A stretch of 36,714 nt of DNA from Bacteroidota bacterium (GTDB lineage: Bacteria > Bacteroidota > Bacteroidia > UKL13-3). Below are positions 16,745 through 22,011 of this stretch, piece by piece. The stretch lies in the NCBI GenBank assembly GCA_034439655.1, contig JAWXAU010000066.1, positions 1 to 36,714 on the forward strand, given 5' to 3'. The notes below the pieces were generated by a model. That model saw only the letters and a list, made by a program, of their open reading frames with translations, did not search any database and was not told the DNA's origin. A program made the position numbers and the translations under genes. Position 1 is the stretch's first letter, and each line of letters begins with the position of its first letter.

Positions 16745-16907
16745 ATACCGAAACTCTATATATAATAGTCCAAAAGAAAGGGACTAATCCTCCCGCATCC
16801 CGATAATTATCGGGATTAAGCGGGGCTTTCGGGATGTAGTTCGGCATTGCCATTCTAAAAACTAATCCGCCACAGGCGGAGAACTATTATAGTTTAAGAA
16901 ATGGTAT
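16745..16907 (+). repeat. Dispersed ~160-bp inverted-end repeat, copy 1
   Basis: One of three related copies (with 22097-22242, inverted, and 36460-36621). It begins ATACCGAAACTC and ends AAGAAATGGTAT; the ends are imperfect inverse complements that share ATACC and an ACTATAATAGT-like block. Inside is CCCGC...GCGGGG enclosing a perfect 20-bp palindrome, ATCCCGATAATTATCGGGAT (16797-16816). Near the right end is a second hairpin, TCCGCCACAGGCGGA. It encodes no protein. It abuts a fragment of a dinD-like gene on its right. The form resembles a MITE or a REP-like mobile palindromic unit; no partner transposase is in the window. Confidence 0.75.
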
Positions 16908-17805: not shown

Positions 17806-17878
17806 TCGTGCGTATATAATATGAGATTTGACAACTTCGCCTCGCTAGTGCATAGCAGAATTGTTAAATCTGCACCGC

Positions 17879-17912
17879 ATTCATCATTCATCATTCATTC
17901 CGCCGCGGCGGA
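17879..17912. repeat. Heptamer repeat followed by a GC palindrome
   Basis: Three units, ATTCATC, ATTCATC, ATTCATT (17879-17899), are followed by the perfect 14-bp palindrome TCCGCCGCGGCGGA (17899-17912) and then by CATCATCATCAC. CAT flanks the palindrome on both sides, so it may be an insertion into a CAT-rich tract. It lies between mreD and the CAP gene. The palindrome core CGCCGCGGCG recurs at 20570-20579. Confidence 0.6.
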
Positions 17913-19332: not shown

Positions 19333-20355
19333 TTAGGGCATCAAAAACTTAAAGCGGTGAATGTTTTTGAGAGCGATACCGGTACCACGTACCACCGCTT
19401 TCAAAGGATCATCAGCCACATGCACGGGCAACTTGGTGCGGCGAGACACCCTTTTATCAAGGCCACGCAACAATGCACCACCACCAGTTAGGTATAAACC
19501 TGTTTGATAAATATCGGCTGATAACTCGGGAGGAGTTATTTCCAAAGCTTTCAAGATGGCTTCTTCAATTTTCGAAATGGACTTATCCAATGCCAATGCA
19601 ATTTCGCTGTATGTTACTACCACTTGTTTGGGCAGTCCTGTAACGAGGTCACGACCATTCACTTCATAATCGGGAGGAGGATTGTCCAAATCGGGCAGAG
19701 CGGCACCAACTTCTATTTTAATAGTTTCAGCGGTACGCTCACCTATCAATAGGTTGTGTTGCCTACGCATATAGTCCAGAATGTCGAGTGTAAATTCGTC
19801 TCCCGCCACCCGTATACTTTCGTCGCACACAATACCAGAGAGGGCAATAACGGCAATCTCGGTAGTACCACCACCGATGTCAATTACCATATTTCCCATG
19901 GGCTCGGCCACGTCGATACCGATTCCTATTGCAGCGGCCATGGGTTCGTGAATGAGGTAAACCTCTTTGCCACCAGCACGTTCAGCACTGTCACGCACGG
20001 CACGCTTCTCTACTTCGGTGATACCTGAAGGAATACAGATAACCATTTTGAGGCTGGGGCTAAAAAACCTTTTGCCCGGATTGATCATGCGAATCATTCC
20101 GCGAATCATGTGCTCGGCAGCGGTAAAGTCAGCAATAACACCGTCTTTGAGGGGACGGATGGTTTTAATATCGTCGTGAACTTTTCCATGCATCATCATG
20201 GCTTGTTTGCCAATGGCTATCACCTCTTTGGTAGAGCGATTGATAGCGATGATGGACGGTTCGTCTACGACTACTTTGTCTTTGTATATGATGAGCGTGT
20301 TGGCGGTGCCCAAATCTATAGCTAACTCCTGGGTAAGGAAATTAAATAATGCCAT
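19333..20355 (-). CDS. mreB: Rod shape-determining protein MreB (actin homologue)
   Basis: The bacterial actin that polymerises under the inner membrane and positions the elongasome. The 340-residue product has normal MreB length and the actin-fold nucleotide motifs: phosphate-1 DLGTANT (14-20), phosphate-2 IDIGGGTTE (158-166) and the adenosine motif TGGGALLRGLD (290-300). The N-terminus MALFNFLTQE resembles the membrane-binding segment common in MreB. IHEPMAAAIG (135-144) and AGDEFTLDI are also typical. It is the first gene of mreBCD on the minus strand. Upstream lie about 450 bases of gene-free DNA with heptamer repeats. No consensus -7 box is obvious; TGGGTTTG near 20434 is the nearest, one base off. 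Confidence 0.97.
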   Translation of the reverse strand: MALFNFLTQELAIDLGTANTLIIYKDKVVVDEPSIIAINRSTKEVIAIGKQAMMMHGKVHDDIKTIRPLKDGVIADFTAAEHMIRGMIRMINPGKRFFSPSLKMVICIPSGITEVEKRAVRDSAERAGGKEVYLIHEPMAAAIGIGIDVAEPMGNMVIDIGGGTTEIAVIALSGIVCDESIRVAGDEFTLDILDYMRRQHNLLIGERTAETIKIEVGAALPDLDNPPPDYEVNGRDLVTGLPKQVVVTYSEIALALDKSISKIEEAILKALEITPPELSADIYQTGLYLTGGGALLRGLDKRVSRRTKLPVHVADDPLKAVVRGTGIALKNIHRFKFLMP

Positions 20356-20512
20356 TCGTTGTCAGATAAATAAGTGGTTGGTATGGATATTTTTAAAAGT
20401 GTTGCAAGTTAGCTTGGGATTGGTTGATTTTGCAAACCCAAAAAATAAAATGTTATGGACAGGATGTTGATAGCCTATAATCAATTACGAATTTCTGCCG
20501 CCGGCAACGGAA

Positions 20513-20611
20513 CGATTTACGATTTAAACTAGGCCGCAGAGCTTAAGATGAGCGATGTTCGATGTAGCTCGCCGCGGCGAGTACGATGTGCGATTTACAA
20601 TGTGCGATTTG
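20513..20611. repeat. CGATTTA/CGATGTG heptamer array interrupted by a palindrome
   Basis: Two CGATTTA units (20513-20526) are followed, after a 26-base gap, by CGATGTT and CGATGTA (20553-20566). Next come 17 bases that contain the perfect palindrome CTCGCCGCGGCGAG (20568-20581), and then CGATGTG, CGATTTA, CAATGTG and CGATTTG (20584-20611). Removing the 17 bases restores an unbroken six-unit heptamer register. The 17 bases end in TA and the sequence before them ends in TA, which looks like a 2-base target duplication, though TA could also be part of a longer imperfect palindrome. Confidence 0.7.
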
Positions 20612-20745
20612 GCTGACGCCTGAATAGTCACTTTCAAATTTGCGTCCGAATTCGAATAATTGGTACTTGCAAAACTTTCACTTCTAAAAAAAATGAAAGA
20701 AGAAAAAACAGGTAAAATAAAAAATAAAAACTGTACAATATTTTA

Positions 20746-20788
20746 TACCTTTGCGTATTATACCAAATGGTATAATACCAACTAGTAT
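20746..20788 (+). promoter_or_regulatory. Promoter and overlapping palindromes of the ATPase gene
   Basis: TACCTTTG (20746-20753) is an exact -7 box, 49 bases before the ATG. Between it and the gene, TATACCAAATGGTATA and TGGTATAATACCA overlap as two palindromes (within 20760-20780), followed by ACTAGT. They would lie in the untranslated leader or at the transcription start, where a repressor could bind. GGTATAATACC also occurs at the left end of repeat copy 1 (16739-16749), so a decayed repeat end is the alternative reading. Confidence 0.4.
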
Positions 20789-20802
20789 AAAATAAATTCA
20801 CC

Positions 20803-22011
20803 ATGAAAAGCTCTCCATTTATTTACGGAAATACTGTTAGTATTTCTTCATTTACTAATAGAGAAGAAGAAGCCAAAAAACTATCAAATAACTTATTAGG
20901 CGGTATAAATACCATGATCATTTCTCCACGACGCTGGGGGAAATCATCGCTAGTTGAAAAAGTTATTTCCGACATCAATAAAAAAGATAAAAAATGTAAA
21001 ACCATTATTATTGATTTATTCTCAGTAAGCAGCGAGCATGAATTTCTGGAACTTTATGCCAAAGAAATTATTAAAGCTTCCTCTAGTAAATGGCAAGAAT
21101 GGGTTACGAGTGGCAAAGAGTTTTTTAAAAAAATAATCCCAAAAATAAATCTAGGAATAGATCCCACCACCGATTTCAGTGTGAGCTTCGATTGGAAAGA
21201 ACTAAAAAAGCACAGTGACGAAATTCTGAACCTTGCGGAGACTATTGCAAAAAAGAAAGGAATCAAATTTATAATATGTTTAGATGAGTTTCAAAATCTT
21301 TCTTCATTTAATCAATTCGAAATTTTTGAAAAGAAAATGCGTTCTATTTGGCAAAGGCAAAAACTCGTTACCTACTGTATTTATGGCAGCAAACGGCATA
21401 TGATGAATGATATATTCAACAATCCTTCAAAGCCTTTTTACCGGTTCGGAGATATTATACTGTTACAAAAAATTAAAACCATAAAATGGGTAAATTATAT
21501 TACCAAAAGTTTTGCAAATACCAAAAAGAATATACTTCCCCAAGATGCGGAACTGATACCCTTATATATGAAAAATCATTCATGGTATGTGCAGCAGTTA
21601 GCCCACTATACCTGGAACCTCACGCAACGCAAAGCAACCATTATAGAAATTGAAAAAGCATTGGACGAATTGATACAAGCAAATACGCCTTTGTACCAAA
21701 AAGAAATAGAAAATATTAGTATTACACAACTCAACCTATTAAAAGCAGTAGCAAATGGGGAATCTAAATTTATGAGTACAGTTATTATGCAACAATACCA
21801 CTTGGGCACTCCGCGAAATGTAAGCAAAAATAAAACTATACTTATTAATAATGATATTATACATCTAGTGAAGGATGTCTATGAATTTTTGGACCCTGCG
21901 TTTGAACTTTGGTTTAAAAAACAGTTTTTCCAGCAATCATATAAAATTTTAGATTCAGGTATGGTTGAGGAAGTAATTGTAAAATATAAAAGTCTCAAAA
22001 AAAAGAGTTAA
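20803..22011 (+). CDS. Archaeal-type AAA+/STAND-like ATPase with C-terminal winged helix
   Basis: A 402-residue cytoplasmic P-loop ATPase of the group usually called archaeal ATPase-like (PF01637 type), which many Bacteroidota carry in several copies. An N-terminal FIYGNTVSISSFTNREEE leads into Walker A, SPRRWGKSSL (41-50); the usual first glycine is serine, as is common in this family. Walker B is FIICLDEFQ (156-164). A sensor-like YCIYGSKRHMM (191-201) follows. The C-terminus is probably a winged helix (about 300-370) ending in the family's FLDPAFELWFKKQF. No function has been established for the family; roles in DNA handling, mobile elements or defence have been suggested, and none is assigned here. 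It is a single-gene unit between overlapping palindromes on the left and repeat copy 2 on the right. Confidence 0.85.
   Translation: MKSSPFIYGNTVSISSFTNREEEAKKLSNNLLGGINTMIISPRRWGKSSLVEKVISDINKKDKKCKTIIIDLFSVSSEHEFLELYAKEIIKASSSKWQEWVTSGKEFFKKIIPKINLGIDPTTDFSVSFDWKELKKHSDEILNLAETIAKKKGIKFIICLDEFQNLSSFNQFEIFEKKMRSIWQRQKLVTYCIYGSKRHMMNDIFNNPSKPFYRFGDIILLQKIKTIKWVNYITKSFANTKKNILPQDAELIPLYMKNHSWYVQQLAHYTWNLTQRKATIIEIEKALDELIQANTPLYQKEIENISITQLNLLKAVANGESKFMSTVIMQQYHLGTPRNVSKNKTILINNDIIHLVKDVYEFLDPAFELWFKKQFFQQSYKILDSGMVEEVIVKYKSLKKKS

Follow-up and report, generated by a model that had tools for sequence, protein, structure and literature searches.

The DNA analyzed here, referred to as the window, is a 36,714-nucleotide stretch of contig JAWXAU010000066.1 (assembly GCA_034439655.1) from a member of the Bacteroidota. 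It carries mreB on the minus strand (19333-20355), and in the upstream region of this gene lies a six-unit heptamer array (20553-20611) that is broken by a G, the 14-bp palindrome CTCGCCGCGGCGAG and a TA. Direct reading of the bases on the plus strand gave CGATGTT CGATGTA for the left part of the array (20553-20566; D2 repeat family), followed by the lone G (20567), the palindrome (20568-20581, no strand assigned), the TA (20582-20583) and, for the right part, CGATGTG CGATTTA CAATGTG CGATTTG (20584-20611; tandem repeat at 20582-20610), and two more heptamers of the same type, CGATTTA CGATTTA, lie upstream at 20511-20526 on the plus strand. An earlier sequence-only reading had claimed that cutting out positions 20567 to 20583 leaves six units in register, and that the 17 bases removed consist of G, the 14-bp palindrome and TA, with TA also present at 20565-20566; the bases confirm both points. 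In what we regard as the best reading of the site, the same 17 bases would represent a single 7-base unit: the 14-mer would have taken the place of GATG in CGATGTA, with the initial C changed to G, and the TA at 20582-20583 is taken as the final two bases of the overwritten unit and not as a target duplication. The same lone G precedes the palindrome in another copy from this genome (L052). A second copy in the window, TCCGCCGCGGCGGA (17899-17912, no strand assigned), directly follows a CATTCAT array (17878-17898) downstream of mreD.

With mreB as the anchor for the orthologous site in relatives, two congeneric MAGs were matched at the mreB-mreC loci, G001 (JANYDJ010000006) and G002 (CANJUD010000006), which are sisters (88.6% identity, compared with 84% to G000). 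G001 carries a long, pure ATTTACG array at the mreB site and no palindrome, and this is the empty allele that the sequence-only reading had sought in the orthologous upstream region. G002 has two palindromes there, one of which is CTCGCCGCGGCGAG and, like the window copy, directly precedes TACGAT. The palindrome at the mreB site is not fixed, and the array turns over rapidly; either state may be ancestral there.

The heptamer array and the adjoining GGCTGACGCCTGA (20581-20626) form a dispersed repeat in themselves, with matches of 42-45 bp at several places in each congener, most of them ending in GCTGACGCC. An inverted repeat resembling TATACC-NNNN-GGTATA (20752-20795) lies just upstream of an AAA-ATPase-like ORF at 20803 and looks like an operator; a similar repeat stands upstream of the G001 homolog of this ORF (L047). 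The hairpin TCCGCC-ACA-GGCGGA resembles the palindrome but was set aside, as it forms the center of a larger, distinct dispersed repeat, present in the window (16830-16905, center 16868) and at L064:13979-14107, where the repeat measures ~125 bp and is MITE-like. This repeat, of which >30 copies at 84-97% identity were found in the window's own genome and none in the two congeners, may carry an old nested copy of the palindrome.

The genome to which the window belongs is AT-rich (3.5 Mb, ~37% GC, 205 contigs, 96.8% complete), and the palindrome recurs in it as a family, YYCGCCGCGGCGRR, a 14-bp sequence with complementary arms in which YY is TT, CC, TC or CT. The 10-bp core CGCCGCGGCG occurred 176 times in the whole genome, and YYCGCCGCGGCGRR including the two outer bases 164 times, whereas the reversed control pattern was found 0 times in either case. 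In the first 352 kb examined, for which contigs were partly picked for holding copies, CGCCGCGGCG was the most over-represented 10-mer (36 occurrences versus 0.02 expected), and half of all CCGCGG sites in ~1.5 Mb (94/187) fell within the element. Among 141 copies read in context (96 from this genome, 37 and 8 from the two congeners), the arms were TT/AA, CC/GG, TC/GA or CT/AG in 122. Copies were mostly intergenic: ORFs of 120 aa or longer, which make up 81% of the sequence, contained only 6 of 94. Period-7 sequence held 24% of copies compared with 2.5% of random positions (~10-fold) or 3.9% of intergenic ones (~6-fold), and periods 5, 6, 8 and 9 around copies were at or near background. An assembly artefact was ruled out because copies within genes keep the reading frame, the phase is constant, three independent assemblies from the genus contain the palindrome and copies occur in other families too. 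One copy (L030:16133) sits at the exact center of a 48-bp perfect palindrome, in which complementarity extends beyond the 10-bp core for a further 19 bases in either direction.

Of the core, the two congeners held 41 and 12 copies (controls 0 or 1), and 32 other genomes of the family held one in total. Phylum-wide, among 395 genomes drawn evenly over the phylum (own genome included), most had none, and several families included genomes with 5-22 copies (controls 0-2). Thus, the 14-mer is sparse in the phylum as a whole but has expanded within this genus, since counts of 176, 41 and 12 stand against a single copy in the rest of the family sample and a sparse presence in the phylum. In the other families, 6 of 16 copies lay inside hairpin loops, compared with 0.85 expected, which may point to a preference for hairpins as targets in those families; in the genus itself, copies in hairpin loops were only weakly in excess.

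Comparison of filled sites with empty orthologs covered ~1.49 Mb of the window's genome (~43%) and ~0.65 Mb of G002 (~21%). All five coding sites with an empty ortholog in one or two congeners showed a net difference of +9 bp, namely aroA and ligA in the window's genome, ribD and a glycosyltransferase-like gene in G002, and a Fic-like gene in G001 (gene names from reading translations, not from profile searches); at aroA the local difference can alternatively be resolved into a gain of 10 bp and, a short distance away, a loss of 1 bp. At ribD, the filled sequence CACA[TCCGCCGCGGCGGA]CCATAATAG corresponds to the empty sequences CACA[AATTT]CTATAATAG and CACT[AACTC]CTATAATAG, with exactly five bases replaced, and because the site is empty in the sister G001 as well as in G000, which is more distant, this copy is a gain in G002. 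In an orthologous heptamer array, ACTG[CCCGCCGCGGCGGG]CTGACCACT corresponds to the empty ACTG[TTTA]CTGACTACT, where TTTA was replaced for a net gain of 10 bp, so that net +9 and net +10 form two classes. The exact figure of 4 or 5 bp lost derives from a small number of clean alignments (five coding sites plus one array) between species that are 84-89% identical at mreB-mreC (11-16% of positions differing), and the junction bases are uncertain and may have changed after the event. Presence and absence with polarized gains was observed at all five genes and the one array site; copies were gained lineage by lineage, most clearly at ribD. These gains, together with the copy numbers within and outside the genus, bear out the earlier suggestion that a very small palindrome has newly appeared at sites. 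The form proposed for it, an insertion of 17 bases that would include a duplicated TA of 2 bases, finds no support, given that in the orthologs 14 bp replace 5 bp (coding) or 4 bp (array); the duplication had been apparent because +10 and +17 are indistinguishable in heptamer arrays.

In the 33 copies with readable register, the missing array bases counted modulo 7 came to 4 in 29 and to 5 in the other 4, across approximately eight array types. This phase agrees with 4 or 5 bp having been replaced and, by arithmetic alone, also with a duplication of 3 or 2 bp. A transposase that inserted the 14-bp (or a 15-bp) palindrome with a 2-3 bp target duplication, such as TAC/TAC, would therefore fit the array phase equally well in the 3-bp case, and it would account for TAC[CTCGCCGCGGCGAG]TAC upstream of mreB in G002 and for the three identical flanking bases in 11 of 29 array copies, but we regard such an insertion as improbable. 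The orthologous array differs by +10 and not +17, the five coding sites differ by +9 with both +17 and +16 being out of frame, and the supposed duplicates are less alike than expected, the putative 3-bp duplication positions of array copies being identical in 71% of cases compared with 84% at neighboring register positions. The flanks of non-array copies (n = 62) contained no significant 2-6 bp direct repeat by identity, and any 3-bp repeat there was weak at most (identity of 0.31 versus a null of 0.25; exact 3-bp repeats at 5 copies versus 1.2 expected, which may be degenerate arrays). No consistent target-site duplication of the MITE/IS-like kind was found in the arrays, the non-array copies or the orthologs, and copies without a flanking duplication are what the sequence-only reading had itself named as refuting it, as far as the TA is concerned. 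Selection on a protein-binding site (nucleoid-occlusion-like, for a regulator, or methyltransferase-linked like cyanobacterial HIP1), with no self-spreading involved, would be in keeping with a symmetric, mainly intergenic 14-bp word whose arms stay complementary while their bases vary and which is present at low copy in other Bacteroidota families. We judge this, too, to be unlikely, since copy number differs by a factor of 15 between members of the genus and drops almost to zero elsewhere in the family, copies arise through a length change of 9-10 bp and not through point mutation, and some copies interrupt conserved genes; a protein-binding role would in any case leave the origin of the copies unexplained.

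Two further explanations start from the GC-rich, extragenic character of the palindrome. Mobilization by a RAYT/Y1 (IS200-like) transposase, as in REP/REPIN sequences, would suit a palindrome of this kind at high copy number, and GTAG does precede the window copy, yet GTAG adjoins only 3 of 141 copies, and matches to PF01797 numbered 0 in the window's own genome (at 96.8% completeness a missed gene is possible), 4 in each congener and many in palindrome-free relatives. We rejected this explanation as very improbable, given that Y1_Tnp matches do not go along with palindrome copy number. A role as bidirectional transcription terminators, to which a short, mainly intergenic GC hairpin would lend itself, was likewise rejected and is scarcely credible, because T-runs were rarer beside copies (8%) than in the background (15%) and convergent intergenic regions were not enriched (15 copies versus 16.4 expected).

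We consider it probable that YYCGCCGCGGCGRR is a very small, non-autonomous dispersed element that spread by overwriting 4-5 bp and thereafter, along with arrays, by recombination. In the mechanism that we propose, a staggered break or a stalled hairpin of ~4 nt would open the site with loss of the target bases, and the palindrome would then be copied or ligated into the short staggered gap from another copy, its symmetry making orientation irrelevant. Copy-in or ligation at such a gap is suggested by the symmetric product, its constant size and the disappearance of 4-5 bases from the target. The weak A/T preference found at flank positions -6 and -5 would not be expected from copy-in that is purely opportunistic, and no donor, intermediate or enzyme for the overwriting was found in this analysis. 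Inside arrays, a second route is likely to have operated, in which array and palindrome would co-spread as arrays of one repeat type recombine with each other. The arm type follows the array type (AGTAGAC-like, 14/14 CC; GAAGTAG-like, 10/10 TT), and joint travel of array and palindrome would explain why each array type has one arm type. Of the copies that arise in coding sequence, only those that keep the frame, at +9, would persist. It is a more tentative proposal that a 14-bp self-complementary word may be a mobile element in its own right, acting through a previously undescribed overwrite in which 4-5 bp are lost, nothing is duplicated and no dedicated transposase is encoded in the genome.

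Few spreading DNA elements reported so far are as small as this palindrome, which offers a test case for the multiplication of DNA too short to encode anything. If the overwrite reading is true, no smaller mobile DNA would be known, and the element would have a wide but sparse range in the Bacteroidota, with repeated landing in heptamer arrays and hairpin loops. Because elements of this size are too small for the ends that a transposase normally recognizes, they have to rely for their spread on host repair, on recombination or on an enzyme that mobilizes bare hairpins. Constant net length (+9 at coding sites, +10 in one array), exact symmetry and expansion within one genus make for an unusually clean and testable system, which also bears on the evolution of bacterial heptamer arrays, since array and palindrome seem to travel together.

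A literature search for the core string gave, among the matches listed, only papers on unrelated subjects. The PstI palindromes of Neurospora mitochondria are small, dispersed, intergenic GC hairpins, longer than the 14-mer and organellar. The repetitive hairpin-forming elements of sponge mitochondria (PMC2800124) are also small GC hairpins that are intergenic and dispersed, and they too are longer and organellar. The GC clusters of yeast mitochondria resemble the 14-mer in being GC-rich, palindromic, non-coding and spreading in an AT-rich genome; however, the most abundant of them, GC42, is 42 nt long, and putative AG or ACT target duplications flank the clusters, unlike the 14-mer (PMC4478555). 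REP/REPIN sequences share with the 14-mer a GC-rich, extragenic, high-copy palindrome, but REPs are 20-40 bp, GTAG-tagged and RAYT-associated (PMC3116915, PMC2817692), whereas the 14-mer has no consistent tag and its own genome no transposase match. The CGTC-tagged palindromes, which include Rickettsia RPE-4/6 and Neisseria dRS3, are likewise short, present in Bacteroidetes, in part intragenic and without a known dedicated transposase (PMC3733652). Their stems measure 8-9 bp and their loops 4-5 nt, and they carry the CGTC tag (PMC3733652), whereas the 14-mer is loop-free, a continuous palindrome with CGTC within 12 nt in only 14 of 141 copies (~10%). Several of these CGTC-near copies have CGTCATTCTG-like flanks (L075, L086, L160 and L031 adjoin AGAATGACG-like sequence), and CGTC-tagged palindromes may there have been the target of the 14-mer.

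The closest known case is that of the small dispersed repeats of Nostoc punctiforme, SDR1-8, which are reportedly 21-27 nt long and embedded in heptamers. The earlier statement that nothing this small is commonly described as mobile needs qualifying in view of these repeats, which come close in size. Like the 14-mer, they are very small, dispersed, non-coding, often located in heptamer repeats and limited to a lineage; they differ as repeats of 21-27 nt from cyanobacteria that are not perfect palindromes, compared with a self-complementary 14-mer from Bacteroidota that overwrites 4-5 bp. PMC4390886, which cites Elhai et al. 2008 (Genome Res 18:1484, PMC2527708) on the Nostoc repeats, places SDR5 between nucleotides 3 and 4 of HIP1. 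Embedding in heptamers, a feature of the Nostoc repeats, was found for the 14-mer as well, at 24% of copies compared with 2.5-3.9% for positions chosen at random.
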